DNA of 64,000 nt from Boothiomyces macroporosus. Taxonomy: Eukaryota > Chytridiomycota > Chytridiomycetes > Rhizophydiales > Terramycetaceae. The notes beneath the pieces were generated by a model. The model saw nothing but the letters and a program-made list of their open reading frames with translations, searched no databases and was not told where the DNA came from. Made by a program: the position numbers and the translations under genes. Position 1 is the first letter of the stretch, and each line of letters opens with the position of its first letter. The stretch is taken from NCBI GenBank assembly GCA_027604185.1, contig JADGKB010000001.1, forward strand, positions 62,001 to 126,000, read 5' to 3'. This document shows, one piece after another, positions 1 through 63,662 of the stretch.

Positions 1-578
1 TTCTTCCCTCTTCATCTCTTCCTGCATTTCCAATCTCCTTTGCTCCAACTGTCTTTTAGCCAGTTTCAACATTTCCTGATTTAATCCAACTTTTTTCTTT
101 TCCGCATTATTCGATATTTGCTTTAAAGATGGTTTTTTAATTATTTCAATTTCTATATCGCTTTCATCTGGTTGCGCATCCACTTGGATAAGATGATCAG
201 TTTTGGGTTTAGTATTTACAGGTTCCTCGGCAGCTTCCGGAATGAAATCTGGTTCAACTTTCTTTTGATATTTCTGTAGGAATTTGTTGATGGATAGTTT
301 TGATTTAGCAACCGGAAGTTCCACATGTAATTCTACGTAAATCTGTGAATACCTCTAATAGCTTTTTGGGAAGTAATCTGTGCTTCTATTCTATCCTTTT
401 TCGTTGGACGTTTGGGGACGTTAATGTAATCATAATTACTTTCATCTGACTCATCGCTTAAATACGGCTCTTCTGTTGCTGGAGCAGCTTCATCCTGGAC
501 TTGCGCTTCTTCTTGTTGCTGATCTTGCACCGTTTCTTTTTCCACTTCTTCATCAGAGCTGTCTATTATTTTTCGCAT
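1..578 (-). CDS. Claspin/Mrc1-like replication checkpoint mediator, N-terminal part (cut by window edge)
   Basis: Exons 578..353 and 332..1 on the minus strand, still open at the edge, giving 186 residues. The 20-nt intron gtattcacagatttacgtag joins IRE to LHVELP and restores a long frame. The N-terminus is very acidic (DSSDEE, LSDESDESNYDY), followed by RPTKKDRIEAQ, SQKAIRE, LHVELPVAKSKLSINKFLQKY and a charged helix. This order (acidic tract, basic helix ending in an RE motif, then a short strand leading into SINKFL) resembles the conserved N-terminal block of Mrc1/claspin, which travels with the replisome and passes checkpoint signals to the effector kinase. That is family knowledge. The identification rests on a short low-complexity stretch, and another acidic coiled-coil nuclear protein is possible. 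It diverges from the centrin gene across a promoter that carries a 52-bp duplication. Confidence 0.45.
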
Positions 579-677
579 TGCGATTAGGAAAAAGTTTGAT
601 TTTCGGACATTTAATCATTGGCTCAATCAAATGCGATTGAGAACCAAGTAGGGTGGAATGCTTGGTCTACAATCCGC

Positions 678-781
678 CTTGTCCGAAGCAAGTCTCTTTT
701 GAATCTTGCTAGCACTGATATTAACCCAACTTGTCCGAAGCAAGTCTCTTTTGAATCTTGCTAGCACTGATATTAACCCAA
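678..781. repeat. Perfect 52-bp tandem duplication (two copies)
   Basis: Positions 678-729 and 730-781 are identical, each starting cttgtccgaagcaagtc and ending attaacccaa; a third start (cttgg) follows at 782. The duplication sits in the 296-bp divergent interval between the Mrc1-like gene and centrin, so it doubles any promoter elements in the unit. Perfect identity implies a recent event. Confidence 0.95.
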
Positions 782-874
782 CTTGGCATTCAGGAATATT
801 CCAGTTACTATTATTGTATAGCAACACGATAATCTCCCGTATTTTCTTTTTGCTGTCATTTCATCTTTGCGTGG

Positions 875-3121: not shown

Positions 3122-3147
3122 TAAACTAACTTCTTGGTCAATTCATT

Positions 3148-6728: not shown

Positions 6729-7268
6729 TTAAACGAGTTCCATATCGTTACGCTCTTGCTTTTCCAATTTGTGTTCCATAATCTTCTGTTTAATTTCGTC
6801 GCCTTCAACCAATTCGATATTCTTTTGAAGAGCTTTAATGTTCTCTTGCAATTCTCTTTCCTTCTTTCCAGCCATTCTACATTAACAATTATAAACCTAT
6901 TCTTGTAGTGTACTTTTTCTCTCTTTTGTTTGATTTCTTGAACACGCTTGATTGCCTTGAGAGTGGTTTGCATAAGGTCTCTGTCGTAACGAACTGGAAT
7001 ATTTCTGCGCTTTTCAAATTCAAGAGTAGAGTCCTGTGATTAAGAGCAATTACCACTGTCATTTCCTTTCCTGCTGCCCTTCTGAATGCTTTGGTCCACT
7101 TTACTTTTCTAGGATTTCGTTTCATTTTAAAGTTCTTGTGGCATTTGGATCGGCACTGCTGTTAGTTCAATTTACAAATCGAAAGGTCTTTGAATCATTT
7201 CTAACAAACATAATTCCGTGTCCTGGGTAGCAAGTACTAGAGCAAAAGTAGCATTTTTCCAATCTCAT
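6729..7268 (-). CDS. RLP24: Ribosome biogenesis protein Rlp24 (eL24-like)
   Basis: Exons 7268..7176, 7155..7054, 7033..6897 and 6876..6729 encode 159 residues; three introns of 20 nt each. The product reads [19 protein letters not shown], then [72 protein letters not shown] and a basic C-terminal helix ending NDMELV. The CxxC...CxxxC zinc-binding pattern and the [23 protein letters not shown] block are diagnostic. Rlp24 occupies the eL24 site on pre-60S particles and recruits the Drg1/Afg2 ATPase for its own release in the cytoplasm (family knowledge). Length is close to the animal protein (163) and shorter than the yeast one. Because the sequence is so conserved, this gene gives the cleanest proof of the 20-nt introns. 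Confidence 0.95.
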
Positions 7269-8094: not shown

Positions 8095-8121
8095 TGAATA
8101 AATCCGTATTTATTTGAAAGT

Positions 8122-10587
8122 TTATTGAATCTTTTCAACATAGTTGGCAGGGAATGCCCCACTCATTCCATTAATCTCACCATCCCACCAGTCAACATCC
8201 TAATATTAATCAATATTACATTTGATTGCACGACGTTGAGCACATCGCCAGCTTTGAACGATAGCTCTCCGGGTGTTGATGAAGTGAAATCGTATAATGC
8301 TTTTACTTTGATTGGATTTTCATTTATGCGCACATAGTTTGACGGGAACTCTCCTTTTCCGTGTTTGCCTTGACCAACCCACCACATTTCATTGCCAGTA
8401 TCTTTGCTCAAGACTTTAATCACTTCGCCCACTTGGAGTGATAATTCTCCATCACAAGTTGCGTCGTATTGGTATAATACGGTTGCTGTTTGCACTTCAA
8501 ATAGTGTTGGCTCGTTTCGAAGTGGGAGTGATTTTACTGATGATTGGTCTGTTTTGAAATTCATTCCACTTTGTCGTTTCGATAATAGCATCGATACTGG
8601 TCTTTTCTGGGCTGGGGCAGGTTCTGCTTGCACACTTGCTGCCACTGCCTCCCAACCTTTAGTAAATAAGATTGGGAAAACACCAATCTCCCCTGTTCGA
8701 ACCAATTTGCCTTCCCACCACTCTTCTTCAGCGTTAATTCCATCGATGCACTCTATCTGATCGCCCACTTTGAATGAAAGCTCTCCTTCTTCAGTGCCGC
8801 TATAGTCTAGATTAATTATAGTTACCGTAGACTGCCTCCACCATTTTAGAGCCTGACAATGGTAAATTGATTGATGGAAGTGGCTGTTGAACTTTAACTT
8901 GAATATAGTTTGCAGGAATCAGTCCGACTTCAGATGTTTTAATAACCTTGACCTGGATTAGCCAAGCTTACTTTTATCCAGCCTGGATTTTCTGAATTAG
9001 TTTCAACAATTTCCACTTCATCTCCCTCCAAAACAGTTAAATCTCCTTCATTTTCAGCAGTGTATGGATATAAAACAGATGCAATTTGCTTCATACTGGT
9101 GGCAGCACCGTTTGAAGAAGTAACTGCTTCTGGCTTAGGAGGCATGATAGGAGCGACTGCGTCAATGAAAATTACCATTCAGCTTCTTTAAGGTTTCTAT
9201 CTGAATTCCAAATTTAGCTCGTTGGCATTTAAACAAGTCCAAACTGTTTTGAATATCTTGAATCAGCTATTATTAGCCAATATTTACTTCCATTGATGCA
9301 TTTGGATTCCCTGTCTGTGGAGCATTTGTGTAAACATCCACTAGATGTTTGGCACCAGATAATTCTGCTTCTTTGATTGCCTGTAATGACGCAATGAGAT
9401 CATCATGTGCGATTAACTCTCCCAGATGCTTTCCAAGAGAGATCTTGCTAAATTCATCAACCACTAGTTCTTTGGTCTAGATTAACAAAAGTTACTTGGT
9501 CTAAACCAACTGGTTCAAACTGTATATCACTAGTTTCTTTGAAAATAGTATTGTTATCAGCCAAGAATTGAGATAGATCCTTTTCCCTGTTAATCAAACT
9601 TGCTTTTTGTTTGATCGTTTCAGAGGTTGTCAATCCACTGGTAGAGACTTCTTCCTGGAATTTCGAAAATGAATTCACAAGAGTTTGAACTGTTTCGTAA
9701 TACTTGCCATCTAATTTTTGCATGAGGTTTGGCAAATCTTCTTTTTCATACAGCTGAACAAGTCGGTTGTATCCTTGAAGAGATAGCAAATAAATATTCC
9801 TGGCTTCATCCAAGGTTTTTGACTTTTGCTTGGCTTTGGTTTTTAACTGTGTTAACTTTTGGATACTTTTTGAACCACTGAAGCGGCATCTTTACCTGTG
9901 ACCATGGTCTTCAATGACTGTAGCCCAGACTTTGGCTTTTTTAACGCATCTTCGTATTTCTTTTGGGCCAAGTCGCTTTCCTTTGATGCCTTGTCATACA
10001 ACATTTTATGTTTCTCCAATTCTTCAAACGCAGTGGTGATTTCCGTTTGATATTTCACAGCAAATTCGATATGCTAATTTAGCCCTACAACTACCTTTTT
10101 GAGTGACACCGCTTTTTGTTTTCCAAATTCTTTAATGACATCCGATATCTCATTTGTGATCTGCTCGCTCATTGTATCGTGCTTCTTTGATAGCGACTCT
10201 GTTTCCACCAATAGTGTTGAGAATGAGGCATATATTTGACTTTATAAGAATATCGTTACCGAATCTGATCTTCTGGAGTGTCCTGAATCGATCCTGTGGC
10301 TCCAGCAACAAGAAATGGCGAAGGATTATTTCCAAGATATTTCCTCAATTTTCGCATCGCTAGTGTTTTAGATAGCTTTTCCAGTGCCTAGAATCAGATA
10401 TATCCAACTTTAGAGTGCTGATGTTCCAATTCTGACCGTGCCTAAATAAGCTTTCTTGTACCTTCATGTATTCTCTCATAGTGTCCAGCATCTCCATTTC
10501 CGCCTCCGCCTTTAATTGCAGCTTGGTGAGCTGAGCTTGCTGTTGTAATTTAATGGATTTAATCGATGGTTTTTCTATCGTTGCCAT
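8122..10587 (-). CDS. F-BAR protein with four C-terminal SH3 domains (Bzz1/syndapin-like)
   Basis: Twelve exons: 10587..10462, 10441..10409, 10387..10260, 10239..10095, 10073..9867, 9846..9496, 9476..9288, 9266..9176, 9156..8947, 8927..8826, 8806..8220 and 8199..8122; 748 residues, introns 19-21 nt. Residues 1-300 are a helical F-BAR region (REYMKARSELEHQHSKALEK, TTAFEELEKHKMLYDKASKE, LDEARNIYLLSLQGYNRLVQ). Four SH3 domains follow: IASVLYPYTAENEGDLTVLE to GLIPANYIQVK; MVEAVYDYSGTEEGELSFKV to GVFPILFTKGWE; TATVLYQYDATCDGELSLQV to GEFPSNYVRIN; VKALYDFTSSTPGELSFKAG to GAFPANYVEKI. F-BAR/SH3 proteins such as Bzz1 bend membrane and recruit WASP at endocytic actin patches; yeast Bzz1 has two SH3 domains, so four is unusual. 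The stop overlaps AATAAA. This is the intron-richest gene after correction. Confidence 0.85.
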
Positions 10588-11582: not shown

Positions 11583-14500
11583 ATGGCAAGCCAGTTTCTT
11601 GCAAGAATAACCCCGAACGGATTAAACGATGCGATGGCTGGGTCAAACTGGCACGAAAAGAAATGGGTTTGGGTTGCCGACAAGAAGGAAGGCTTCCTTG
11701 CAGCAACCATAGTAAAAGAAAATGGCGACGAAGTCGAAATTGAATTAGAGGATAACACCGTATACGAAATTTAACCTAGAAACGAACTGTAAATATCAAT
11801 GACACTGAAAAAATGAATCCTCCAAAGTTTGATCGTGTAGAAGATATGGCAGAATTGACTCATCTAAATGAAGCATCTGTCGTACACAATCTTAAATTGA
11901 GATACACAACCAATTTGATTTATGTAAGCCTATTACTAAATTAGACTTACTCTGGTCTTTTCTGTGTCACTGTGAATCCATACAAAAAATTACCAATCTA
12001 CTCTGATGACATTGTAAAGGCATACAAGGGCAAGAAGCGGTCCGAAATGCCACCACACGTTTACTCTGTCGTGGACCAGTCCTACCATGATATGATTGAA
12101 AACAAAGAAAACCAGTCTATTTTGATTACGTAAATTGTTTTTTGACAATAGTGGTGAATCTGGTGCAGGTAAAACTGAAAACACCAAAAAGGTTATTCAA
12201 TACCTTGCAAGTGCCACGTCTTCTACTGGAAAGTTGGGAGAATTGGAACAGCAAATTATCCAAGCCAATCCTATTTTGGAAGCTTTTGGTAACGCGCAAA
12301 CTATCAGAAACAACAACTCTTCGCGTTTCGGTAAATTTATTCGAATTGAATTTAACTCTGGTGGTCAGATTGCTGGGGCAAACATTGAACGATACCTTTT
12401 GGAAAAGTCTAGAGTTACCCACCAAACCACCAAGGAAAGAAACTACCACATCTTTTACCAGCTCTTGAAAGGCTCGTCTCCTGAATTAAAGCGTATTATT
12501 AGTACTAACGATAGAACTATTGCTTTTGGATGGTACTGCTAACGACTACCGTTTCACCAAGAATTCAAACAAGAATGTCGATGGTGTGGATGATACTGCC
12601 GATTTCAAGGCTCTTAAAGAGTCATTGAAGGTTATGAACTTTAATGAAAACGACCAAAACAACTTATTTAGAGTTGTCGCTGCTGTTTTGCATCTCGGAA
12701 ACTTGACTGTTGATGCTGACCGAGAGGACCAAGCAAACTTGACTTCCCAAGCTGGTCCGATTGTTGAAAAGGTCTGCCATGTTCTTGGAATTCCTGTTGC
12801 CGAATTTACTAGAGCATTGTTGAAGCCTAGAATCAAAGCTGGCCGTGACTGGGTAACCCAAGCCAGAAATGTTGGCCAAGTCTACTACTCCATTGAAGCT
12901 TTGTCTAGATCTTTGTACGAAAGAATGTTTGGAGAATTGGTTGACAGAATCAATCAAACATTGTATACTCCTGCTCAAAAGGCAACTTTTATTGGTGTTC
13001 TCGATATTGCCGGTTTCGAAATCTTTGAAAAGAATAGTTTCGAACAACTGCAAATCAACTATACTAACGAGAGATTGCAACAGTTCTTTAACCACCATAT
13101 GTTTATTTTAGAACAAGAAGAATACAAGCGAGAAGGTATTGAATGGAAATTCATCGACTTTGGTTTGGATCTCCAACCAACCATTGATTTGATTGAAAAG
13201 ACTTCCCCAATTGGTATCTTGTCTCTGTTGGACGAAGAGTGTGTCATGCCAAAAGCTACCGACAAGACCTTTATTGGCAAGTTGAACGGTTTGTGGAAGG
13301 GTAAATCCGCCAAGTATGACGTGCCAAGGTTCAGCGACGGTTTCATTCTACAACACTATGCTGGCAAAGTAGAATATAGTGTTGAGGGATGGCTAGACAA
13401 GAACAAGGATCCTTTGAACGAAAATGTAACAAAGCTCCTTTCCGCCTCTACGGAAAAGTATATTGCTGAATTGTTCAAGGATTCAGTTGGCGACGAAGAA
13501 GACGTAAACCCAGGAAAGCCTCGTGGAGTAACCAAGAAGGGTGCTTTCCGAACTGTCTCTCAAAAGCACAAGGAAGGCTTGACCCTTTTGATGAACCAGC
13601 TGTACTCTACCCAGCCACACTTTGTTCGTTGTATTATTCCAAACGAAGAAAAGAAGCCTAGTAAAATTGACATCAACTTGGTCTTGGATCAGTTGAGATG
13701 CAATGGTGTCTTGGAAGGTATCAGAATTTGCCGTGCTGGTTTCCCTAACAGATTGATCTTCCAAGATTTCAGAACCAGATATGAAGTATTGGGACCTGCT
13801 GTTATTCCAAAGGGATACATTGAAGGTAGAAAAGCAGCAACTCTCCTCCTTGAACACTTGAATCTTGACAAGAATCAATACAGAATTGGTTCCACCAAGG
13901 TATTCTTCCGTGCTGGTGTCTTGGCAGAACTTGAAAACAGAAGAGATGTTCAACTAGGCAAGCTGGTCATCCGTATTCAAGCAATTATGAGGGGATATCT
14001 TGCAAGAAGAACCTACAAACGCAAGATTGAACAATTCAGAGCCATTAGAATCATTCAAAAGAATGCAAGAATCTATGTACTTTTAAGAGAATGGTCTTGG
14101 TGGAAACTTTATGTCAAGGTCAAACCATTGCTTAACGTTACACGCAATGAAGAAGAGGCCAAAAAGCGTGAAGCTCAGCTCAAGGAGTTGGAAGAGCGCG
14201 CTGCAAAAGAGGCAGAAGAACGTGCCAAAGTCGAAGCCCTGCGTCTTGCACTGGAACAGGAAAAGAAGCACTTAGAATCCTTGTTGTTGCAAGAACAAAA
14301 CGCTGCTGCTGACCAGGCAGAAATCTTGGCCAGAACTCAAAAGAGAGAAGTTGATTTGAACGATAGAGTCAAAGATATTTTGAAGGAGTTGGAAGACAAA
14401 GAAGCTCAAACAGAACAGCTCTTGGCTGCCAAGAAAAAGCTTGATGCCGAAATTAAAGCATTGCAGGACCAGGCTGCTAGTGATGCTTCATCCATCGATC

Positions 14501-17500
14501 GTCTTGAAAAAGAAAAACAAAGCAAAGATCAGCGATTAAAGGAAATTGAAGAGGAACTCCAATTGGAACTCCAAAGAGTTGCCAAGCTCGATGCAGATAA
14601 AAAGGCTGTTGAAAAGCAGCTCCATGATTTGGAATTCCAACTTTCCGTTTCTGGCGATAGCCAAGCCGAACTTGCAAAGAACAAGGCCAAAATTCAAGCA
14701 GCCCTTTCGGAATTGGAGCAAAAGCATGAACAGGAAGTCTCTGAAAAACAAAGGGTGGAACAAAAGCGTGCCTCATTGGAATTGGAACTTCAAAAAGCTC
14801 TCAACACTATTGCTGATTTGGAAAGAATCAAGTCAGAGCTTGAATTTACTTTGAAAAAGAGAGAGTCGGAAATTGCTTCTTTGAACGAAAATTTGGCCGC
14901 TCAAAGTGCTGAAAAGGATGGCATCGAAAGACAACGTAGGGAATTGGCTATCAAATTACAAACCCTGCAAGAAGAATTTGACAATGAAAAGTCCGAAAAG
15001 GAAAAGGTCGCAAAGCAGAAAAAGAAGGTCGAAGAAGAAGTTGAAGAGCTCCACAGAATTATGCAAGAAAAGGGCAATGAAGAATCAAAACAGGGCGAAA
15101 TCCGTAGATTAAGAGATCAAGAAGTTGCCAATTTAAAGACCCAGTTGAACCAAACTCAAGAAGAGTTGGATGACACAAGAAAGAAGGGCCATATTGCAGT
15201 AGAAAAGTTGAACAATGACTTGGAATCTGTAAGACAAGACGTAGTCAACATTACAAAGTCTAAGCAAACTGTTGAACTGCAAGTTGCTGAATTGAAAGAA
15301 ATGATTGAAAGAGCTGAAGAACAACGTGCTAAATTGGAAAAGTCCAAGAGACAAACCGACAGTGAATTGGAAGCTTTGAGATCCAAAGCAGGAGAAATGG
15401 AAGTCAATTTGACTGAAACAAGATCTCAAAAAGAGATGCTGGAAAAGCAAATTGCTTCAGCAACTTCAAAGTTAGATGCTCTTGAAACTGAAAACAGCAG
15501 ATTAGAACGCGAAAAACAAAGTATCAACAGACAAAGTGAATCCATCAAAGAAGAATTGGAACAAGAAGTTCAAAAAAGACAAGCTTTGGAAAGCCAAAAG
15601 AAGAAGCTGTCTATGGAAGTGTCTGATTTACAAGCCAGAGTTGAAGAGGAACAACTGTCAAAGGCAGATGCCCTTCAAAAACTTCAATTGAAATCCAGTG
15701 AATTGGAACAAATCAAAGATAAATACAACAAGGATGTTCTCTCGAGAACCGCTGAATTCGAAGATGCTAAAAAGAAGGTTGACAAAGAAATCATTGAATT
15801 GACAGCTCGTCTTGAAGAAGCAGAAAGAAATTCAAGCAATCTTGATCGTACCCGTGCCAGATTAAGCACTGAAATCGAAGATTTGAAATTGGAAATTGAG
15901 AGAGAACACAACACTGCAAGAAACGCCGAGAGATTACTCAAGCAAGTAGAGGCTCAGGTAAATGCTGCCAATCTGAACTTGGAAAACGAAAGAAGACAGC
16001 GTGAAGTTGCTGATTCAAATGCTAGAAAATTGCAAGCTTCATTGGATTCACTACAGCTCTCTGTTGAAGAAAAGAACTCTCAAATTGCTGCATTGCAAAA
16101 GAGCAAAAACGACATGGATGCTGAATTGAAGTCCTTAATTAACGAAATCGGTGATGGTGGCAGAAACCAGCATGAACTGGAAAAAACCAAACGTAGATTG
16201 GATGCAAAGATTGAAGAACTTACTCTGCAAGTTGAAGTTGAGGAAAAGGCCAAGCAGTTTGCTGAAGATGCTAAAAAATCATTGGAAATCCAATTTTCAG
16301 AATTTAGAAAAAAGTCCGAGTATGACATTCAGGCAAAAGAAGCTTTGATGGAAGAAACCAGAAAGATGCTCATGAAAGAAGTAAATAGCTTGGGTGAGCA
16401 GTTGGATGAAGCCAATAATGCAAAGAATGATGCTCTCAAGCAAAAGAAGAAGCTGGAAGAACAATTTGAAGAGTTAAGCTCTAGAGCTGAAAATTCTGCC
16501 AAAGGGCAATCTGACTTGCAGAAACTAAAGTCCAGAAACGAGGCAATTGTTAAAGAATTGCAAGCTCGTTTGGAGGAAGAAGAGCGCAACCGCCAAAACC
16601 TTCAAGAATTGGCTCAACGTCATGAAAAGAAAGCCAACACCCTCCAATCTGAAATTGAAAGGCTTGAAATGCAAATTGATAGCGTTGAAAGATCCAAGAA
16701 GCAACTTGACAAGAAGATTGCAGAATTAGACAAGGAACTCAACTCTGGCGAAGACAGCAAGCAAAACTTGCTTGAACTCAAGAGAAGATTGCTCAACGAA
16801 AACCAAACCTTAAAGACCCAACTTGAAGAGTCAGAAGAAGCTCGCGAAGCTTTACAAGCTGCCAAGAATGCTCAAAGCAACGAAGGACCACTTCGTGGAG
16901 CCGCCATTTTAGAGTATGAAGACAAGATTTCTAAATTGGAAGAATCTAGACGAGCATTGATGGCTGCGCAGAGATTGGCTGCGCAAGAAATCGATGAAAA
17001 GACTGCTGCTTTGCAATCCAGCGAAAAGACAAAGAAACAATTGCAAACGGAATTGGATGACCTAAAAGCCAGATTAGAATCCGAAACAGTTGCCAAAGGT
17101 GAAGAAAGTGCAAGCAGACGAAAACTTGCTGCTGAATTGCGTGACTTGCAGTTAAGATACGATGCTGAAACGCTCAAATCAGCCGAATTGAATGAAGCAC
17201 TTGCACTTTACAAAGCTCGTGCAGACCAAGCTTCTGAAAAATTGGAAGCTGCTGAATTAGGAAGAATGAAAGCCGAAAAGAGCGAGTCTGCAAACAAGGC
17301 AGCTATTAAAGAATTGGAAGACAAATATGCAGACATTGTTAAAGCCAAGAGAGCGGCTGAGGATCAAGCCAAATCTTTCGAACAGCAGCTCGTTGATTTA
17401 CAAGACAAACAAGAAGAATCTGCTCATGAACTTGCCGACTTGTTGGTTGCAAAGCGTAAACTGCAAGACGAACTCAATCAAATCAATGAAAGAAATCGTG

Positions 17501-18616
17501 CAGATTTGAACGAAAGAGAAGCATTCGAAGACCAAGCTAGAAAGAAATACCAAAAAGAAATCAAATCTTTGATGGCAGACCTTGAAGGCGAAAAGGTTAA
17601 AGGTATCTCCATGAAGGAGAATATCAGGGATCTTGAACAAGAAATTGAAGGCTTGAACATCAAGATTGACGCTGAATTGCGCTCTTCTGTCCAATGGAAG
17701 AAAGAAAAGGAAAAGTTGGAAAGCAAACTGGAAGACATTACTAGAGCTCATTCTGATTTGTTGAGTTACAATGATGACCTTCAAAATTCCGTTAATTCAT
17801 TGAATAGTACCGTTAGAGAACTGCGCGGTGTTGTTGACGAAAAAGAAACTCAAATCGCTCAATTCGAAAAGATGAAGAAATCTTATGAACAAAGACTTCA
17901 CGAATTGGATGCTGAATACAGCAACTCTCTTCGCGACAAGAACAACATGAACAAGAACGTTGCCAGCTTGGATGCCCAAGCACAAGAATTGCGTGATATG
18001 CTTGATGAAGGACAAAAAGCATTGAAGAGTGCTGAAGACAGAGCCAAACGCTCTGAACAGCACGCCTCTGATGTTCAACAAGAATTGACCAAAGAAAGAA
18101 GCTTGAACATTGAGCTCGAAAAGGCAAAGTTAATCTTGGAAAAGTCTCTCAAAGAATTATCTTCACGTTTATATGAATATGAAGGCCTTAACTTGGCGCG
18201 CGAGTCAATGACAAGCAGGAGACTGGAATCCCGCCTGGATGAATTAACCGCCCAACTTGATAGTGAACAAAAAGAAAAGAATGAAGCATTAAAGAACTTG
18301 CGTAAATCCGAAAGAGTTATTAGAGAATTACAATTCGCTGTTGGTGAAAAAGAGAAACTCAAGCAAAAGTTTGAAGAAGAACAAGACAAGATGGAGCAAA
18401 AGCTGAAGAAGATGAAGGCGCAATTAGAAGAATTGGTAAGCTTGAAACTAAACAACAGGAACTTTCAGAAAGCAGCTTGCAACTTGCTAAGCGTAGAGCT
18501 GAAAGAGAGGCTTCCGAATTCAAAGAACGATCCCTGCGGTAATTACTTATTAATATAGATTTGAAAAAGAATGCGATAAACTCAAGGGCCGCGCAGATAG
18601 AGGTGTTGCTGTTTGA
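11583..18616 (+). CDS. Myosin II heavy chain (conventional, long coiled-coil tail)
   Basis: Exons 11583..11759, 11780..11923, 11945..12129, 12152..12492, 12515..18435, 18459..18538 and 18559..18616 encode 2,301 residues. The N-terminal SH3-like fold contains [20 protein letters not shown]; the P-loop [14 protein letters not shown] spans about residues 170-183; switch regions [13 protein letters not shown] and [16 protein letters not shown] follow; then [20 protein letters not shown] and the converter. One IQ motif ([17 protein letters not shown]) precedes [14 protein letters not shown], the head-tail junction typical of class II. About 1,480 residues of heptad coiled coil follow. Fungal Myo1 works in the cytokinetic ring. 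The intron at 12493..12514 (22 nt with tactaac) was chosen over a 13-nt alternative because it restores ELKQLLLLDGT. Introns sit only near both ends; the central 5.9 kb is one exon. The tail is longer than in most fungal Myo1 proteins. Confidence 0.95.
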
Positions 18617-19064: not shown

Positions 19065-22000
19065 ATGGTCGCATTTGAAATCTTGAATGATGAGGACCAG
19101 CAGCATATCGCAGTTGAAGATCATATTATTAGAGAAAAGGAAGTAAGCTAGGGCTAAGATAGATTGAATCCCTGCTCTCCAGATATACCAGCGCACTTGT
19201 CCGCATCAAATCAAACCCAGCAGAAACGAAAGCTGAATTTGAAAGTATTATAAAGTCGAAATATTTCAAAGAAAAGTTGGAAAAGATTAGCGATATTCAT
19301 GATTCATCAATCCATGTGTTGAAATATTGCGTTTACAAAAACTATGCGACCTTATTGGAAGGACCAGATCGGCTAAAGTATTTCGAAATGGCGATAGATG
19401 TGGACCCTTCGGATTTGAAATTGCTGTTAAAAGTCTCGGATCTAAGGATGGAAAAAGGTGATTATCAGGAATGCTTGGACAGACTGTTGCAAGCTTTGGA
19501 GCTTCAGCTATTGCCTGATGAAAGGGTAATGATTATGGTTAAAATCCAAAAGGTTTTTCTCTTTGACAACAGTTAATGTATGACTATGGGTGCTTTAGGG
19601 AAGCGCTAGAATGGGGCAATTTGGTTCTGAAATTGGATCCAAATGAGAAAACTGCACTGGGTATTAAAGCGGAAATAATCAGAGACCATTTGCATGGAGG
19701 TTATCTATTAGTATCTGATATTCCGATGCAGGAAATCTACAAATTCAAGTCAAATCCTATAACACTGTCAGTCCCACGAAAGCCCCTTTACATAGGTAAA
19801 TCAGTTTTTAATTTCTGCCAACAATGCAAAACCGCAATGCTACAACCTAAAAATATCAAATAGTAGCACTTTGAGAGATTTCACTTTAAAGCTGGTCTCG
19901 ACTTTTTTGAAAATTCAGTAATTTGGCTTGATGATAGGGCAAGCGAAGAGTTTATCCCTCATGTTAAAGTTGAAATAGTTGAAAAGGGCGAAGAAATGGA
20001 TATTGATGAACCAATAGAGCCAGAAAGTGATTTTCCAATGCCTGATGAGAATCTTCAGGAAAATCCAAATGAATACACGGAAGACGAGGAAAACTTTGGA
20101 CAGGAGGAGGAGGTAGAATCCAGCGAAAAGGAGCATCAAACTGGCGCCACTATCGATCCAATCCCTGAAAATGGCATGGATGATGATATGCAAGTTGACA
20201 CTCAGGAGATCACTAATTTGGACCTTTCTCAGAAAGCAAGCGATCCAGAGGTTCATGATGAAGACTTTAATTCACAAAAGATCACAAATACGGAGAGTGC
20301 AGAAGAACAAATGCCTTCCCCTACAATGGGAGTTGGTGCAGACAAGGAAATTGTAAAGGAGGATACGAAAGATACCACAGAGGAGGAACCAGCGAAAGAT
20401 GATGAAGAACAATCCGATAGCTCTGAAGGCACTCAAAAGAAACGAAAGCCAAAGAGAAAAAGAGTATCTGAAAGGGTAAAACGACAGCATACGGTAGAAG
20501 AAGAGGAAGAAGATTTGAAGTTGGAGGAAATTACCACTTTGAATCAAAACCTACCACCCCACCAGCAATTTACCGAAAATGGCGTTTCTATTGCTGGCAC
20601 TATTAGTGATTACACGGAATTCAACAATTATTTGGCTAGTGAATTGCTTGCCAAACAGATAACCCGAAAGAAAATCAAAAGAAAAGTACATGCGCTTAAT
20701 TTTGCATTTTGGGATCAAACGGATGATCATGCTTTTTTTACATCGACAGAAGAGTGTCAAGAATTTATAGCAAGCTTGAGTTCAAATCACCAATCTACAA
20801 TTTCAATGATAGTATGCAAGCTTATAATTAAATTGATTGAAAAGGATGTCAAAGACAACACACCTTCGGCAAAAATGTATGCAATACTAAGCGTGCTGCT
20901 TCATGTATGTTCTAGGACCACATCTGTTTTTGATTTCATTATTGGAGATCTAAGGAACTCTCCTTTCTTTGGATCTATCCATAATCAAATTGGAGCAGTG
21001 CTATTTATTGCCGAAATGCTCTTTGATTCAATCTTGGATAGCTCAAAAAAGGAATTCTATGAAGATTGTGATGAAGAAATAGGCGGAACTGGATCAATTA
21101 ATCCTTTAGTTCGATGCTCCCGATTAGATTTGTTCAACAGAGCCATGACAAAGATTAGACAATGGGCAGATACTGAAGAAGTTGATCCATCTTATGTTTT
21201 ACGATATTACTGGCTAATCGCAAAAAGAGAAGAAGTGGTTGGAACTCCATACACAGTAGTTAAATCATTGGAGGATTGCGTTGATTTCTACAATGTGCAT
21301 TATCCAAAAGGAGAGGTAGTTACTGTCCTGGCAAGCACTACAGAAAACAAGATTGACCGGGATTCGATCGCTTTCAAGATAAAATACCAACAGCTTCGAT
21401 TGCATATTGATGAAACCCAGTCCCTGATGAATGACATGAAATTGGAACAAGTAGTGGAGCGACTGGAAAGCCTGTTGTTGAACATGAGAAGCAATGTCGA
21501 AATTCCCGGAAAAGACATTATAAATCAAATGCCACCTTTAAAGCGGCTAGAGCTTATGGAGATGCTGAAGGTATCCTGTATTACATTGGGACTGGAAAAA
21601 TCTGCATTCATGAGTATTCAAGAAGGATGCTATCTATTAATTAGCTACCTCCAGGAAAAGTCTTTGGATATTTATGTTGTACTAGAAAAGGTGATTATTC
21701 ATAACCTAGTTTTCAGAACTGATTCATGAACTGGTAAATACTGTTCTTCAAGACAATTCTTGGAAGGCAAAATACTTGGAAACACCCTTGGAAGATTCAG
21801 AGTTTAGCTTTGTTGCATTTACGTGTGTAAAGATATCTTGGATAATCGCACAAAATATCAAGGATATTTCAGTTTCCCCAAAAAACACTTTTCACTCGAG
21901 AATGAGAATCTTGAAGAACTTTTGTGCGAATAGCTGGGTATTGTTTGCTCATTACCTTGCTCCAAACAGAGACGATAAGGATCAAAATGACAAATTGAGC

Positions 22001-30352: not shown

Positions 30353-30379
30353 TAAATAGAATATATTGCAGATACATTG

Positions 30380-33910: not shown

Positions 33911-33974
33911 ATTGTTTGAATGAATCCTTGTTTTGCTTGAATTTTCAAAGTTTGTTTTTTTCGCGTCTGCCATT

Positions 33975-35210
33975 ATGAATGCGCATAAGTCGTTTTGGAG
34001 TGTTGACTCTTCGCAGCACTCTGAAAGGGGAGAAAAGAGACTGAGGTCCTTTTTCTTAATGATAGTATATCGTCTCGCAGCGACAATATTGAACTGGAGA
34101 TTACTTCAAAAACGCAAGAGCGGATACACAGAGTAGTAGAAAGTCAATATTTCAACTTTGGTGTATTCCTGGTGATAATGATCAACATTGTAGTGATCGG
34201 ATTTCAAATTACTGAATCAGTGAATAACGACTATGGATATTATCTTTCAATCGCGGATTCTATCATTATTGGGATATTCATGTACGAAGTCATTCTGCGG
34301 TTATATGTGTGGAGGTGGAAGTTTTTTTATAGTAAATGGCTGATATTTGGTAAATAACCTTTAACAAGACTTGGTGATGGTGTTGCTGTCACTATGCGTT
34401 ACAATTATTCCCAATGTCGTTCTAACTATTCAGCAATCATCTTTACTTGATTTACTCAGAATGACAAGAACTCTAAGGTTGATTCGTTCAGTAAGGACGC
34501 TTCGTAACATCAACGCAGTGAAATCAATTCAAATCATACTGGAAACATTGAATCAATCCTTAATTGCAATGTCCAACATTTTTCTTTTGACACTATTGAT
34601 TGGATGTAAAATTGAACTAATGTAGACATGTATACCTTGGCTGGAGTATTTCTATATGGATCAATTGATTCATACAATTTTGGATCAGTAGGAAATGCTG
34701 CAATGGTCTTTCTGCAAGTTGCATCTTTGGATTCATGGTCAAATATATACATGAAAAGCAAGTCTCAAGCGCCGGATATGTTTTTTGTCCTGGCTTCATT
34801 CATTGTCATCCAATCTTTCGTGCTATTCAAGTACTCTTTGCTGATTTAGCCTACTTACTGCCGTAATCGTAGATAATTTGACTTTGCTCAGAAAGCGTTT
34901 GACAATTGTAGCCAATGCAAAGAAACAGGAAGACAATCTACAATCAGATTTCCTAAAAAAGATGGTACTGTGTGCTAATGTAAGCGAAGAAACAAATCCA
35001 AGATTAGTACGAACGCAGAAAATCAGATGGGCATTGATAACTACTACTCTGGCGATTTACCGTGGAAGTAATTAATATTTAACGAGAAATAAGGAGATTA
35101 TGGCTTCGTACTATATGAATCTTGCTAGCTTGGAACACAACATGAATTTATATGATAGACACAACCGTCTGGTAGAAGATTTGATAGGAATATTAAAGAA
35201 AAACAAATAA
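33975..35210 (+). CDS. CatSper-like single-domain voltage-gated cation channel
   Basis: Exons 33975..34045, 34066..34349, 34369..34605, 34626..34830, 34850..34964, 34985..35067 and 35087..35210 encode 372 residues; six introns of 19-20 nt. One six-helix domain is present: S1 FNFGVFLVIMINIVVIGFQI; S2-S3 SIADSIIIGIFMYEVILRLY and KWLIFDLVMVLLSLCVTIIP; S4 LRMTRTLRLIRSVRTLRNIN with six arginines at three-residue spacing; S5 FLLTLLIGYMYTLAGVFLYG; pore FLQVASLDSWSNIY; S6 FVLFNLLTAVIVDN. The pore sequence SLDSW matches the CatSper T-x-D-x-W filter. A C-terminal coiled coil (ASLEHNMNLYDRHNRLVEDL) fits CatSper subunits as well. CatSper is the Ca2+ channel of the flagellum, so this agrees with centrin. 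It follows ALAS after only 64 bp. Confidence 0.8.
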
Positions 35211-42434: not shown

Positions 42435-45092
42435 ATGAGTGAAGAAAAAACCAGCTTGTTTCGGTCAGAGCCAATGGCTCTCACTCAAGTAACTCTCGCT
42501 AATCGCAGCTGTATATTCCTTTAGAAATCGCCCCTCAAACCATCGCAGAGTTGGGAGAGCTTGGCTTGATGCAGTTTAATGATGTAACAATATCTAATGC
42601 TAGTTAAACCCAAAAGTCAACGAGTTTCAGAGGACTTTTGTGAATGAAATCAAGAGATTGAACGATTTGGAAAGAAAATTGCGCTTCCTTATCTCGCAAG
42701 CTGACAAGGCAGCCGTTACTCTTCAACCAGTGGACCCACTAACGCCATACGCAAGAACACGATCGCAACTGGAAATTGATCAATTGGATACGCAACTAGG
42801 AGAATTGGAAGCTAGGATTGAACAAATGAATACTTCACATGTTAGTTTGAACAAGAGATTTTTGGAGTTGACCGAATTGCGACACGTCTTGAGAGAAACT
42901 GCAGTATTCTTCCAAATTGTACTCGTTCATTTACAATAGGCGGAATCAAGAGCTGACGAAATTGCTGTTGGAGGCAATACTAGGGAAGATTCTGGTTTGT
43001 TGGCAAACCAACAGCGTGAATCGATGGATCCCGGTGCATCTGGTGGCCATACCATCAACATTGGGTAATTTCAATTTGATTGTAGATTTGTAGCTGGTGT
43101 TATTCCAAGAGCCAAGATGGGAATTTTTGAAAGGATTCTATTCAGAGCGCTCAGAGGAAACTTGTTTATGAACCACGCTGAAATCCAGGAGCTAATCATC
43201 GATCCAGTTTCTGATGAAACAGTTACCAAAAATGTATTCATTGTTTTCGCTCACGGAAAAGAGTTGCTCAACAAAATCAAAAAGATTAGTGAAAGTATGG
43301 GTGCGACATTATATCCGGTAGATGAACACCCAGACAAACGTCGTGAAAGCGCTTTAGAAGTTATGGCAAGGATTGAAGATCTGAGACATGTGTTGGATAA
43401 TACTAAAGCTGCGCGAAGAGCAGAACTCAGTAGAGTAGCTGAGCACTTGAATCACTGGTCGGTTATCATTGAAAAAGAAAAGGCGATCCACCATCAAATG
43501 AACAAAATGAGTTATGATGTCAACCGAAAAGCTTTGATTTCTGAAGGTTGGTGCCCAAAAGCTTCGATTGGAGCCATTCAATACTCACTTCGAGCAGTTA
43601 CAGTATAAACTTTCTAAATATTAGGAACGTACCGGAACTACCATTCCTCCGTTGCTTAATGAACTGCCAACTACTCGTACACCGCCAACTTCGCAAAGAG
43701 TAAACAAGATTACCAACGCATTTCAAATTATTGTCGACGCTTATGGCGTTGCAAAGTATGGAGAAGTCAATCCTGGATTGTTTACTATTATTACATTCCC
43801 ATTCTTGTTTGCGGTTATGTTTGGCGATTTCGGGCACGGTATATTGGTAACCATTTTCGCGATTTGGGTTGTTACTAATGAAAAGACCTTGGCAAAAAAG
43901 AAGTGGGGAGAGGTAAGCGGAATTTAAACTCTAGATGTGGGTTATTCTCTTTGGTGGTAGATATATTATCTTGTTAATGGGTATTTTCTCTATTTTTACT
44001 GGTTTGGTTTACAACGATATGTTTTCTCAATCCATGACTTTAATGTCCTCAGAATACACCTTCCAATACCACAATGACAGTGGGAAATGGATTGGCTCAA
44101 AGACATCAACATATGGCTTCGGTGTGGATCCAGCATGGCAAACCAGCGACAACTTTTTGATTTTTGCTAATTCGTACAAGATGAAAATGTCCATTATCAT
44201 TGGTGTTCTCCACATGGCTTTCGGTATGTGTCTTCAAGTCTTTAATCACCTTCATTTCCGTAAGCCAATGTACATTATCTTGGAGTTTGTTCCCCAGATC
44301 TTGTTCTTTATGTCTCTGTTTGGATACTTGGTGTTTTTGATTTTCTTCAAATGGCTAACTTATTACGAAAATACATCTGAAGCCCCTGGTCTACTCAACA
44401 CACTAATTTATATGGTCCTTTCACCTGGATCCATTGCTATGCCGCTATTTCCCGGTCAAGTAACTAGTTTTAATCGTTAGGGTCCTCTTCAAGTATTCTT
44501 GGTCTTTATTGCATTCATTTCTATCCCATGGATGTTACTGGGCAAACCATTATATGAATTGCAAGAGCACAAGAGAACTGTTGGTGCAGGATATGCCCCT
44601 ACGTCACATGGCACTGAACAAGCAGCAATGCTGGCTGAACAAGGAGAACAAGCACATGAAGAAAGCCAAGAAGATGACCATGGTGGCCATGGAGGAGTAT
44701 TTCCTAATTAATTCTAGAAATTTGAATTTTCCGATGTGATGATGCATCAAATGATTCACACTATTGAATTTACACTCAGCGGTATTTCCAATACTGCGTC
44801 TTACTTGCGTTTGTGGGCGCTGTCCCTTGCACACGCTCAACTGTCGGATGTTTTGTGGGAAATGGTATTGCTACCAGCCTTAACATCGGCTAATGCATTT
44901 GCTATCGTAATCGGCTTCTATATGTGGTTCACCATGACTGTTAGTATTTTGATTTGCATGGAAGGTATGTCTGCATTCTTGCACGCACTTCGTTTGCACT
45001 GGGTCGAATTCCAAAGCAAGTTTTACGGAGGTACAGGTACGCAATTTCTTCCATTCTCCTTCCAAGCAATATTTGAGGATCAAGAAGAATAA
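42435..45092 (+). CDS. VPH1: V-type proton ATPase subunit a (Vph1/Stv1)
   Basis: Nine exons: 42435..42488, 42509..42583, 42604..42918, 42940..43064, 43086..43602, 43625..43912, 43935..44459, 44481..44696 and 44718..45092; 829 residues, eight introns of 20-22 nt. The cytosolic half starts [20 protein letters not shown] and contains [20 protein letters not shown] and [20 protein letters not shown]. The membrane half has [48 protein letters not shown] and [20 protein letters not shown]; the Arg in [15 protein letters not shown] is the residue essential for proton transfer to the c-ring. It belongs to Vo of vacuolar/endosomal membranes. Length and domain order are normal for fungi (about 840). 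The stop lies within GAATAAATT. The symbol marks the orthologous family only, since the organelle isoform cannot be judged. Confidence 0.96.
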
Positions 45093-48681: not shown

Positions 48682-48695
48682 AATAATAATCTTTT

Positions 48696-50246: not shown

Positions 50247-50943
50247 ATGGTAAACCAAAGATTAACAAAAGAGCATCACAGAATATAATGGCGGCAGTGT
50301 AATGGCAATGGTCGGGAAGAATTGTGTAGCAATTGCCTGTGATAAGAGATTTGGTGTTCAAGCACTTACCCTTGGAATGGACTTTGACAAAATATTTCCA
50401 GTCAACGATAAGCTTATGATTGGATTGGCCGGATTAGCGACTGACGTAGAAACACTGTAATTATAATTTAATCCAGACATGAAAAGTTTAGATTCAAAGT
50501 CAACATGTACAAACTGAATGAAGATCGTGAAATCACACCAAAGACTTTTGCACATTTAGTCTCCTCGACTTTATACGAAAAGAGGTTTCCTTTTTCTAAG
50601 ATAGATTCGGACCATATTTCGTAGATCCAGTCGTTGCTGGTTTGAATCCAGATGGAACGCCATTCATTTGTTCAACGGATTTAATTGGATGTATTAATTT
50701 TGCAAAAGACTTTGTTGTTGCCGGAACTGCATCTTCAATGATGTACGGTATGTGCGAAAGTTTGTGGGAACCGGATCTCGTAATTCAATTTAATTTTAGG
50801 AACCAGAGAGTTTATTTGAAACAATTTCTCAAGCAATGTTGAATGCAGTTGATAGAGATGCCTCGTCGGGTTGGGGTATTTTGGTTCATGTCATCACACC
50901 AGAGAAAATCATCTCTAGAACTCTAAGAGCAAGAATGGATTAA
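50247..50943 (+). CDS. PUP3: 20S proteasome subunit beta-3 (Pup3/PSMB3)
   Basis: Exons 50247..50249, 50272..50456, 50477..50584, 50605..50779 and 50800..50943 encode 204 residues, almost exactly the yeast length. The product starts [20 protein letters not shown], continues [80 protein letters not shown] and [20 protein letters not shown]. Beta-3 is a non-catalytic inner-ring subunit with no propeptide or catalytic Thr1, consistent with what is seen. The first exon is only the ATG: a 22-nt intron follows directly, and its removal gives [14 protein letters not shown], the expected conserved N-terminus. The remaining introns are 20 nt each. The stop is followed at once by TAAAATT, overlapping AATAAA. 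It is divergent from MSE1 over 50 bp. Confidence 0.96.
50250..50271 (+). other. Intron directly after the start codon of PUP3 (3-nt first exon)
   Basis: gtaaaccaaagattaacaaa plus AG, 22 nt, separates ATG from AGC ATC ACA GAA. Without splicing the ATG frame does not reach the proteasome protein. The normal N-terminus of beta-3 (M-S-I-x-x-Y-N-G-G) is recovered. Confidence 0.88.
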
Positions 50944-55935: not shown

Positions 55936-59896
<3,961 letters not shown>

Positions 59897-59933
59897 AAAC
59901 TATTTAAAATATAAATAAAAAGCAAATTATTAA

Positions 59934-62900
59934 TCAATTTTCGTACTTTGTCAAATCCAAAGTCATGGTTTTGCTTGTACCTTCGCCAATATCCTTGTAG
60001 ATTCCGACAAGAGAATCTGAATCTTGGTAGAACCCACTCTTCAAACTGATGACAATGAATTGGAAAGACGGACCTTTTTGTTTTTTGATATAGTTGAGAA
60101 CTTTTTGCACATTAGTGTTGTCCAGAGCTGCATCTACCTCATCAAGAATGAAAAATGGCGATGGTTGGTAAGAATGGATTGCAAATAGCAATGCCAAAGA
60201 TACAATGGTCTTTTCGCCGCCAGACAAGAGTTCCATTTCTCTAAATCTTTTCATTGGCGGCATAGCATGATATTTGATTCCATCATTGTACGGCTCATCA
60301 GAATCTTCGAGTGACAAATACGCAGTCCCACCAACAGGAACATTTGCAGATTTCGTCAGTTCTTTGTAGATATCATCTATTGTATCAGCGATATGTGTGT
60401 AGCAGCGATGGAATAGAGTATACCTATGTCAATCAAATAGTACCTTTGCTTTTTGATTTCTTCAAACTTTTCTTTGGCTTCTTTGGCTTCGTTCCGTGCT
60501 TCTTCAAATTCAAGATTAGTTTCTTTTAATTTATGATTGATTTCATCCATTCTAAATTAGTATTGGTAAACCTTTCAGATGTGCGAATGCTTGGTGCTAA
60601 TCTCTCAATCTCATCTTGAATATCTTTCAAATTTTGTTCAATTTGTTCCAGGAATTGTTCGGATCCATCCTACAGTTAAGTTCAATTACTTTTTTGAATT
60701 CATTGGAAAGTTCTGCATAGTCTACCGTTATTTCCTGCATATCAACATCGGCATCGAAAGCAGGGTTGAATTCGGCCAGCGCCAGATTCTTCAAACTGGA
60801 ATCAACAAGAGGAATATCAACTTCTTGCAGTTTACAGCTTCTTAATATTGCAATTTTTTCTGCTTTTAACAGTTCTAATTGTGCTTCTCTTTTGCTAATG
60901 CTTTTGTTTGTAGCTTGTATTTCAGTTTCAATTTCAGAATTCTTTTGTTTGAACGCTTCCATTTCTGAAACTATAGAGTTTAGTCCGTTCTTGGCAGCTT
61001 GCAGATCTGTAGTAAACCCATCAATTTTTTCACGTATGCCATTGATTTTCTGTTCAAATTTAGAAATATCACCTTCCACTTTTTGTAATCTTGATTCTAG
61101 AGAAGCGGCCGTTTCTTGTGTATGCTTGATACGATGGTCTAAATCCTGCAACCGCTTTTCATCAAACAAGATCATGTTTTCTAGTTTGATCTTGGCAGTT
61201 TGATATTCAAGTCTAGTTTCAACTGATTTTTGCAACGAATCACTGTATATCTGATGGTAAGCTCGGATATCTTCAATCCCTGTATCCTGACAAAACTCTT
61301 TGAACACCATAATTTCTTGAGCTTTGATGTGATCATCAATTTCATGCATCTCATTTTGTAAATCTATAATCGTCTTTTTCTTAATTTCCTGATCTCTTTC
61401 GTATTCTTCTTGCTTCTTTTGGAGCTCTTCAAGTTCTTTTGTCTTGTCACTGATTTTTGAAGTCAAAATTAATGCTTCTTCTTGGAATGATTCAATTTTT
61501 CTTAGCAGCCCTTCCGTATCAAATGAATCTTCATCTTGCAATTTACGCTTTCTCGTTTGAATATCTAATAGATCGTCCATGTACTGCTGCTTTTTAGCAA
61601 GTAGTTCTAAATTAGAATATTTTACCTTCAACTTCCTTTTCTTGCCATCTTTTAGAAGAGCTAGCATCTCCGCTACCACCTGTAATCATACCCGTCTTGT
61701 GGAACACGGTACCCTCCAACAATACAACTTTAACTGATTTGTCAAATGCCAAGTGTTTAGCAACAGACAGGTCTTCACTAATCATTGTGTTGCTAACTAC
61801 ATACTTGATTGCCTTTTCATAAACTGGCAAGTATTGAAGGACATCAATGGCTAGTTTAGCACCATTGTAATTTCTGTATTTATCGTGAATTGGTTTCGTA
61901 GATATAGTATCTAGAGGGATAAAAGTTAATTTTTCCAATCGTTGTTCTTTGAGGTAATTGATACATTCAATAGCAGTCTTTTCAGTATCTACTACAACCG
62001 AATCCATTTGTTTTCCCATAATAACAGATACAGCTTGGTCGTATTTTCTTTGGTTCGGCTTGCAAAGATCAATAATCTTTCCTTTGAATCCCGGAAAGAG
62101 CGTCCTTAAGGAATCTATTGCTTCTTTGAGCTTCTTTTTATGTCTGGTAGACTTTTCTTCTTGTTTAGCCTGCAACAATTTGTTTTGTACAACTTCAAGC
62201 TTTTCGTGAATCTGGATTTCCTTTTGAGCCAGCATTTTCCTTTCGGACTCCAACTCGCTCTTTTCTTGCTGTTTTGATTCTAATATTTGTTGATTTTCAT
62301 CCAAGACTATATTAGAAATAATTACCTTTGGATACTTTGGCAAGATTTTTTTCCAACAAGCGCTTTTCATCAGTCAATACAGTAAAATCGATTGGTTTAT
62401 CAGTTTCCTTCAAGGTTTTTAGTCTCGTTTTGATATTCTTTACTTTGAGATATTCAAGTGCCAAATTTGATTCAATCTCTTGCTTTTTTTGCTGGTAAAC
62501 AGCCAATTGCTCTGGATTTAATTGTATATCATCTTGGTTCAATTCATCCATCTTTTTTGCTATGTTGTCCAAATCTTTTTTCAACTGAGCCAAGTCTTGT
62601 GTTTTTGTTTTTTGATTAGACAGTAAATCCGATAGTGATTGTTTAGATTTTGCCACTAGAGAGCTCAAGTGTTTTTGTTCTTGAATCAAGTTCACCATAG
62701 ACAATTGCTTTAACTCTTGATTCGCAGTATTGATTTTCTTTTCATATAGCAAGACTTGCTTTTGATATTTGGCTTGCTGCTGGGTCAATTCCTTCCTTTT
62801 TGTATTTGTTAATTGGCCTTCAAGTTTTTCCTTTGATTCCAATTCTTTTTCCAAAGCAGTGGAATTTTGCTTTAATCGCTGCTCCAGATGATACAACTTC

Positions 62901-63662
62901 CACAGATGCAACAAGACAATCTTGATTAATAACAGTTACTTGATCTTGTTTTTTTGAAATCAAATTTTGATATTTTTTCATTTCGCGCTCTTGCTCCTTG
63001 TATTGCTTTAGCTGAATATTGATATTCTTTTTCTTGTTGTAATTAAGGTTTGTATTTTCTAGTGATTTCTGCATTTCTTGCTTTAGCTGCTCATATTCTT
63101 GCTTGTATTCCAAAGAACCGCTAATCTGTTCAATCAACCTGGTCAAGTCCTTTGGAGATTGCGAAGAGATCTGATTAGCTAAAATTTACTTGTTCAATAT
63201 CACCCTGAAATACCAAAAAGTTTCTTGCTTTCACCAGAATATCCTGATCACCAAGCACTTTCAAATAGTTGGCAAACGTAGTCGTCTTGTCATTGATTTT
63301 GTAAACACTAGAATTTCCTGTTGGTTATCAAGAAAATACCTTGGACGATTCTCTTGAAAGTCAAATCCCCTTCGTCTGTATCCAACACACAACTAACGTA
63401 GCATTCATCTTGAATCCCATCATTATAAATCAACTCTTGTAGCTGAGCTGATCTCAATTGATTGGTTTTTATCCCCAATACGAACGAAATCGCATCCATC
63501 AAGTTAGATTTCCCTATTTTTATATATCAAGTACCTGATCCGTTTGGCCCGATAATGCAGGTAAAGTCATTGATAAAATCAATTGTATGGAGCCTGTATT
63601 AGCCACTTTTACCCTTTGTATGACTTGAAATTGAAGAGACTGATTTGTTTAAGTTTACCCAT
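59934..63662 (-). CDS. SMC1: Cohesin subunit SMC1
   Basis: Eleven exons: 63662..63613, 63593..63535, 63513..63340, 63317..63190, 63170..62940, 62920..62326, 62306..61626, 61606..60690, 60669..60572, 60551..60444 and 60423..59934; 1,176 residues, introns 19-22 nt. The N-terminal ATPase half begins MGKLKQISLFNFKSYKGLHT and carries Walker A CIIGPNGSGKSNLMDAISFV. The first coiled coil starts FQGDIEQISSQSPKDLTRLI (diagnostic for SMC1). The hinge spans about 500-680 (VVVDTEKTAIECINYLKEQR, HKTGMITGGSGDASSS). The C-terminal half has DEPYNDGIKYHAMPPMKRFR, ELLSGGEKTIVSLALLFAIH and FFILDEVDAALDN (Walker B). It pairs with SMC3 in the cohesin ring. The start exon was found from the motif and is not near any earlier ATG. 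It converges with the ABCC gene, 37 bp away. Confidence 0.95.

Follow-up and report, generated by a model that had tools for sequence, protein, structure and literature searches.

The stretch of DNA considered here (the window, 64 kilobases [kb] at C1:62001-126000) comes from the genome of Boothiomyces macroporosus, whose assembly totals 15.2 megabases in 216 contigs, and most of its gene models are interrupted by predicted introns of about 20 nucleotides (nt). Boothiomyces is a soil saprotroph, and B. macroporosus is placed in Terramycetaceae, Rhizophydiales, Chytridiomycota, so that the host of these introns is a true fungus. A first-pass annotation had placed about 93 introns in 27 genes, described them as a 19-23 nt class dominated by 19, 20, and 21 nt, and suggested that they are used genome-wide. 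Our final window models, built with learned splice-site and length weights, agree well with this count: 111 introns occur in 27 of 36 models, and 101 of them measure 19-23 nt (25, 44, 21, 9, and 2 at the successive lengths). Ninety-five of these 101 are frame-forced, i.e., their length is not divisible by three or their retention gives an in-frame stop; of the remaining six, at least one looks false. Most of the ten window introns longer than 23 nt are uncertain. Five genes encode conserved proteins in which the introns could be compared with homologs:

42435..45092, plus strand: V-ATPase subunit a, spliced protein of 829 amino acids, 8 introns at 42489-42508 (20 nt), 42584-42603 (20), 42919-42939 (21), 43065-43085 (21), 43603-43624 (22), 43913-43934 (22), 44460-44480 (21), and 44697-44717 (21).
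59934..63662, minus strand: SMC1, 10 introns, supported by an alignment of SMC1 sequences deposited for B. macroporosus itself, for relatives, and for S. pombe, at 63594-63612 (19 nt), 63514-63534 (21), 63318-63339 (22), 63171-63189 (19), 62921-62939 (19), 62307-62325 (19), 61607-61625 (19), 60670-60689 (20), 60552-60571 (20), and 60424-60443 (20).
50247..50943, plus strand: proteasome beta-3 (PUP3), introns at 50250-50271 (22 nt), 50457-50476 (20), 50585-50604 (20), and 50780-50799 (20).
6729..7268, minus strand: Rlp24, introns at 7156-7175 (20 nt), 7034-7053 (20), and 6877-6896 (20).
11583..18616, plus strand: myosin II heavy chain, motor introns at 11760-11779 (20 nt), 11924-11944 (21), 12130-12151 (22), and 12493-12514 (22).

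Splicing restores these five proteins across 29 introns of 19-22 nt, which bears out the earlier statement that Rlp24, PUP3, SMC1, and V-ATPase a are recovered in this way (the alignments cross 3, 4, 10, and 8 introns respectively). V-ATPase a aligns with the deposited protein of Boothiomyces sp. JEL0866 with 40 mismatches and no gap, supporting 8 of 8 introns. PUP3 aligns end to end with mouse beta-3 over 204 amino acids and all 4 junctions, with a lone one-residue gap away from the junctions, and Rlp24 aligns with yeast Rlp24 without gaps over its 3 junctions. The first 358 residues of the myosin align with smooth-muscle myosin over all 4 motor junctions, apart from a gap of one residue located two residues past the first of them. 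All 10 SMC1 introns are supported by alignment; distant SMC1 homologs have one residue more at the 63318-63339 junction.

The spliced SMC1 shows 99% identity over 97% of its length to the SMC1 deposited for B. macroporosus. The deposited protein lacks model residues 1-41 (presumably holding the ATP-binding loop), 130-137 (VFQGDIEQ), and 413-421, in each case at tiny introns, which illustrates how gene annotation in Terramycetaceae suffers; both the VFQGD stretch and the N-terminus are kept in S. pombe and in the remaining chytrids of the alignment. The JEL0866 SMC1 lacks residues 130-137 and 1014-1019 and has a different N-terminus, while the Terramyces SMC1 has 7 residues inserted at residue 94 and is missing residues 973-1034. 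Counting internal indels only and omitting terminal differences, 6 of 6 in the three deposited Terramycetaceae proteins lie at most 3 residues from, or span, tiny-intron junctions. The Terramyces insert may be a retained 21-nt intron, which it fits wherever the codons fix the base. In V-ATPase a of Globomyces, both deletions longer than 2 residues are located at tiny-intron junctions of the Boothiomyces model, which hints that Globomyces too may have tiny introns. Such deletions are a weak sign outside Terramycetaceae, since those in Batrachochytrium lie only partly at junctions: a 31-residue deletion in B. dendrobatidis spans one, and a 16-residue deletion in B. salamandrivorans does not.

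The length class is also visible independently of homology. Words of the form GTA...branch...HAG were counted in the window and compared with 10 simulated sequences from a second-order Markov model; 27, 34, and 12 occur at 19, 20, and 21 nt vs. 4.9, 4.6, and 5.4 expected. The count at 22 nt is slightly raised (10 vs. 6.5), and no length between 14 and 59 nt besides 19, 20, and 21 exceeds 11. A flat two-strand finder, using codon usage only and scoring any GT..AG equally, placed 13, 19, and 10 introns at these three lengths among 69 in the window (12-100 nt allowed). We then extended the sample by 200 kb from six further contigs to 264 kb, or 1.7% of the genome. The flat finder (12-120 nt) called 332 introns there, with none at 18 nt, 40 at 19, 73 at 20, 38 at 21, 24 at 22, 6 at 23, and 2 at 24 nt. 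A length-neutral finder, with donor and acceptor weights and without length weights, made 503 calls, 348 of them at 19-23 nt (80, 157, 72, 33, and 6; 342 at 19-22 nt) and one at 18 nt. The class is thus narrow, at 19-22 nt, with a sharp floor at 19 nt, and needs no length weights to appear.

As GT-AG ends are imposed by the finder, they were tested separately with decoy pairs. In competition with TG..GA, GT..AG prevailed by 165:3 at 19-23 nt and by 15:5 at 12-18 nt, while the two were level over 24-120 nt (85:82 in sum; 10:9 at 24-30, 26:20 at 31-50, 20:24 at 51-80, and 29:29 at 81-120 nt). Run alone, the decoy placed 16 of 309 calls at 19-23 nt. Against five further dinucleotide pairs GT-AG was ahead at 19-23 nt by 161:7, 157:7, 159:7, 172:3, and 131:13, and GC-AG or other dinucleotide classes were rejected, as they formed no peak there in pair competition. 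AT..AC as a separate (U12-type) class likewise showed no peak, with 13 calls at 19-23 nt vs. 22 at 12-18 nt, U11 and U12 being outside the search.

Genome-wide use, as first proposed, is borne out by the sample: the tiny class has a matching length distribution on each of seven stretches from seven contigs, and 92 of 108 models longer than 200 amino acids carry introns. Extrapolating 348 introns per 264 kb, about 20,000 are expected in the genome. Because 347 of the 348 differ in sequence, a mobile intron-like repeat was rejected.

The anatomy of the 348 introns is equally uniform and follows the earlier description, which had GT (mostly GTA) starts, TAG, AAG, or CAG ends, and a branch-like word near the intron end. 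They begin with GTA in 320 cases, end with TAG (220), CAG (73), or AAG (55), have a GC content of 29%, and contain a YTNAY branch motif, most frequently TTAAT, CTAAT, TTAAC, or CTAAC. A heuristic picker confined to 3-12 nt from the intron end places the branch A at position 14 (136 introns) or 15 (156) and never at position 13; 32 introns have it at 16-18, 23 have a weak pick at 8-12, and one has no pick. The distance from the branch A to the 3' end is mostly 5 nt (165) or 6 nt (130). The two spacers look nearly independent (14/5 in 70, 14/6 in 59, 15/5 in 86, and 15/6 in 51 introns), and two near-fixed spacers account for the lengths of 19 nt (14+5), 20 nt (14+6 or 15+5), and 21 nt (15+6). 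The donor holds 6.0 bits and the acceptor 7.2 bits of information, and 215 kb of coding sequence contain 19 sense intron-like matches of 19-23 nt at a threshold passed by 75% of introns. The signals within an intron, about 13 bits together with the fixed spacing, would nearly suffice for recognition.

Introns of 21 nt give a sign of use. If retained, 63 of 72 would introduce an in-frame stop, compared with 158 of 274 at the other lengths of 19-23 nt. Test introns of 21 nt are recovered by the finder less well when they have no stop (38/64) than when they have one (88/91); after correction for recovery, about 22 stopless introns are expected and 9 of 72 are seen (p 0.0003). Such a shortage would follow if the introns are spliced and unspliced copies are policed. 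A similar stop bias in introns whose length is a multiple of three is known in Paramecium.

The spliceosome parts tested show no sign of reduction. The genome contains one U6, two U2, and one U1 small nuclear RNA match, all with canonical recognition sequences: the U1 5' end AUACUUACCUG is complementary to the 5' splice site, both U2 matches have GUAGUA, complementary to the branch motif, and U6 carries ACAGAGA. SF1 is encoded with SF1-HH, KH, and zinc knuckles, as is an exon-split U2AF65-like protein with three RRM stretches, which scores 231 bits where the family cut-off is 310. Loss of U2AF or SF1, which the first-pass annotation had suggested looking for, is hence unsupported for SF1 and U2AF65, U2AF35 being outside the search. 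Yju2 is encoded, with a family match starting at position 1. Cwc25 is encoded as well, and loss of its plug, which is not conserved in Stentor according to the excerpted account (PMC9505925), was rejected, as MGGGDLNLKKSWHP is kept intact. The region around CWC25 is present twice, on C49 and C100, with 3,288 identical bases, reflecting either assembly redundancy or a recent duplication.

One component, Isy1, does differ. Isy1 is a branching factor that reaches the spliceosome active site. Its canonical N-terminus MARNEEKAQSMLYRFREAQ is replaced by MAPKTLAQKQE... in B. macroporosus and in Boothiomyces JEL0838; Globomyces, Kappamyces, and Gorgonomyces also have a changed form of this N-terminus. 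Among the records compared, seven chytrids that we take to lie outside Rhizophydiales retain the motif with minor variations, as do an ascomycete, an amoeba, and an animal record. The Isy1 deposited for B. salamandrivorans begins inside the motif and therefore does not help to decide. A predicted divergent gene begins about 40 bases upstream of Isy1, leaving little room for a missed first exon. Among the best 120 of 327 homologs, 70 contain the motif, another 26 start within it, and the remaining 24 match neither description; several of the latter are near forms or truncated, and six look complete without the motif (P0121-P0123, P0167, P0192, and P0208). Two of these, P0167 and P0208, come from JGI metagenome contigs.

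The replaced N-terminus might help a lariat loop of 14-15 nt to fit the active site, although this is a more weakly grounded step of the mechanism proposed below, and the change as an adaptation to tiny introns is a lead, not a result. We give even chances to the alternative that it is a coincidence of clade divergence, unrelated to intron length. The change occurs in several Rhizophydiales, while intron lengths are known here for B. macroporosus alone, and B. macroporosus keeps the Cwc25 plug that Stentor is reported to have lost; on the other side stand the wide retention of the motif among homologs and Stentor itself, likewise a tiny-intron organism, which is reported in the excerpted account to lack the motif (PMC9505925). 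A broader and rather doubtful scenario is that tiny introns arose in a Rhizophydiales group together with the Isy1 replacement, convergently with heterotrich ciliates. If true, the active-site arm of Isy1 would be the barrier to lariat loops of 14-15 nt (or 10 nt), and its loss the key to the smallest introns.

Taken together, the segments are very probably U2-type spliceosomal introns of B. macroporosus that have been worn almost everywhere to a physical minimum. U6 would occupy the opening ~6 nt of the intron and U2 the ~7 nt leading up to the branch A, with the two recognition boxes almost touching, and the floor at 19 nt would correspond to these two boxes plus a 5-nt tail (14+5). Deletion pressure may have pushed the introns onto this floor, a pressure that excerpts of a mikrocytid study propose for introns in that group (PMC10245619). 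Since extended U1 and U2 hardly fit together on such introns, recognition may proceed by intron definition with fast handover or overlapping binding. A fungus that splices at 14-15 nt with standard U1, U2, and U6 sequences would make the minimal-intron question testable in a kingdom well served by yeast tools.

Several observations weigh against this reading. Its support comes from genomic DNA and protein comparison, and the site weights of the length-neutral finder were trained on calls of 17-25 nt. The U1 match falls just below its Rfam cut-off (68.8 vs. 69.5), and a whole-genome search for U5 RNA gave no match, as did one for RED, a candidate short-intron factor; absence of either is not shown, because the controls were silent too. 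Intron-like words of 19-23 nt in exons (91 vs. ~105 expected from other lengths, at the loosest threshold) are not significantly depleted. The link between Isy1 and intron length is a correlation. Further, in 12 small loci outside training (~3-4 kb each, with genes cut at their ends), 52 of 98 length-neutral calls are at 19-22 nt and the others are scattered. Finally, Isy1, outside the window, has five introns, three tiny and two inferred at 49 and 46 nt by reading the DNA against the deposited JEL0838 protein; the 46-nt intron is required by that protein and the conserved stretch EQAAxMQxKIxPEEL, and the 49-nt intron is implied by the N-terminal join. Longer introns are thus tolerated and the tiny class is not absolute, and the earlier term "strict", although applied to a real class, was slightly too strong.

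These longer introns bear on the possibility that the tiny class is real but that longer introns, overlooked or wrongly modelled, make up a substantial fraction of the total, the uniformity being partly a finder artefact. Both longer Isy1 introns were mis-modelled by the length-aware finder, 155 of the 503 length-neutral calls lie outside 19-23 nt (many likely bridge neighboring genes, and some are real), and in the untrained loci 46 of 98 lie outside 19-22 nt. We nonetheless consider a large longer share unlikely: GT-AG calls outside 19-23 nt are barely above decoy (100 vs. 87 at 12-120 nt), and 32 of 34 homology-checked introns in the five window genes and Isy1 measure 19-23 nt.

It is very improbable that the segments are removed or skipped without a spliceosome, by DNA elimination, tRNA-type splicing, or ribosome bypassing. 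Their length is far under the ~50 nt needed in human extracts between the 5' site and branch site (~52 in the B complex), as given in excerpts of PMC6692369; yet their donor and branch motifs match the organism's own U1 and U2, the core parts tested are encoded, GT-AG introns of 46-49 nt also occur in Isy1, and plain read-through is excluded by stops or frame changes for the 95 frame-forced window introns. That they are sequencing or assembly indels, which the first-pass annotation had named as an alternative, or pseudogene debris, has next to no likelihood, even though the evidence is from DNA and protein and some calls with lengths divisible by three are probably false (38170-38190), as GT..branch..AG with fixed spacing is foreign to indels, the motif-length counts and the 165:3 ratio over decoy contradict it, the class recurs on seven contigs, and relatives' deposited proteins continue through the same junctions.

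As spliceosomal introns, those of B. macroporosus stand at the short extreme of intron lengths. The nucleomorphs and ciliates first named for comparison fit, and mikrocytids (introns of 16-17 nt; excerpts of PMC10245619) belong to the list too. The 18-21 nt introns of chlorarachniophyte nucleomorphs resemble those here in length range, abundance, and narrowness according to the same excerpts, but a nucleomorph is a relict endosymbiont nucleus and the present case is the main nucleus of a fungus (PMC10245619). The heterotrich ciliate Stentor coeruleus, in the portions of its account available, has introns of 15-16 nt with fixed spacing, in which 5 nt follow the branch A, together with canonical U2 and U6 recognition sequences and a non-conserved Isy1 N-terminus, these features being as in B. 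macroporosus; it differs in having the branch A at position 10 with no strong branch consensus, compared with position 14-15 here, and introns in 18% of its genes (PMC9505925). Mikrocytid introns are likewise very short and uniform, yet mikrocytids are described in the excerpts as parasites with a reduced spliceosome, with 224 introns in M. mackini, whereas B. macroporosus is intron-dense (PMC10245619). The same contrast holds for Microsporidia, which are fungus-related and have short introns, but few or none of them, and reduced spliceosomes (same excerpts of PMC10245619). The introns of Trichomonas, at shortest 23 nt, are also among the shortest reported, although in the excerpts this organism is intron-poor and has a second class of 56-196 nt, unlike B. 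macroporosus (PMC12316389). Among the matches listed in an open-licence literature search, with subscription papers and preprints outside its reach, none describes introns of this kind in chytrids or other fungi, so that, as far as our searches reach, the first-pass remark that no fungus-like lineage is known to have them is right. Ultrashort introns are already known in nucleomorphs, heterotrichs, and mikrocytids.

Further calls in the window are as follows:

8122..10587, minus strand: gene that we take to be F-BAR/SH3-like, with 11 introns of 19-21 nt by the gene finder.
9477-9495, minus strand: example intron of the first-pass annotation, gtaacttttgttaatctag, within the F-BAR/SH3-like gene; exact pattern match in the genome.
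333..352, minus strand: 20-nt intron in the first (partial) gene, by the gene finder; frame-forced, and the point where the interval of the first-pass annotation starts.
18436-18458 (23 nt) and 18539-18558 (20 nt), plus strand: myosin II tail introns, by the gene finder alone.
19065..24212, plus strand: long model of 1600 amino acids, by the gene finder alone, with 11 of 13 predicted introns at 19-22 nt; those of 85 and 39 nt are doubtful, and two of 21 nt are not frame-forced.
31999..35210, plus strand: apparent fusion model by the gene finder, with 9 of 13 introns at 19-22 nt and four longer, doubtful ones.
38170..38190, minus strand: 21-nt intron call in an ABCG-type transporter, not frame-forced and a probable false positive.

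The model at 31999..35210 seems to fuse two genes, which, on reading the protein, we take to be 5-aminolevulinate synthase-like and cation-channel-like. The call at 38170-38190 is probably false because splicing would remove residues that we take to be a conserved ABC-transporter stretch, and it marks the limit of the finder for stopless calls with lengths divisible by three.

Amid intron-rich neighbors, a predicted intronless gene at 3223-4170 contains repeats with NGCPW words, presumably ankyrin-like. A unit of ~52 bases (acttgtccgaagcaagtctc...) occurs twice in tandem at about 672-785, where no gene is predicted. At 51943-52841 and 53559-54523 the window encodes two related proteins that look secreted and that combine an expansin-like part with a CCSxYGYCG motif, which we assume to be a chitin-binding module. 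Outside the window, the two members of each match pair on C20 (38221/83288 and 74242/119309) lie 45,067 bases apart, an offset that suggests a duplication within this contig, about 36 kb or more if continuous, excluding 30001-34933.

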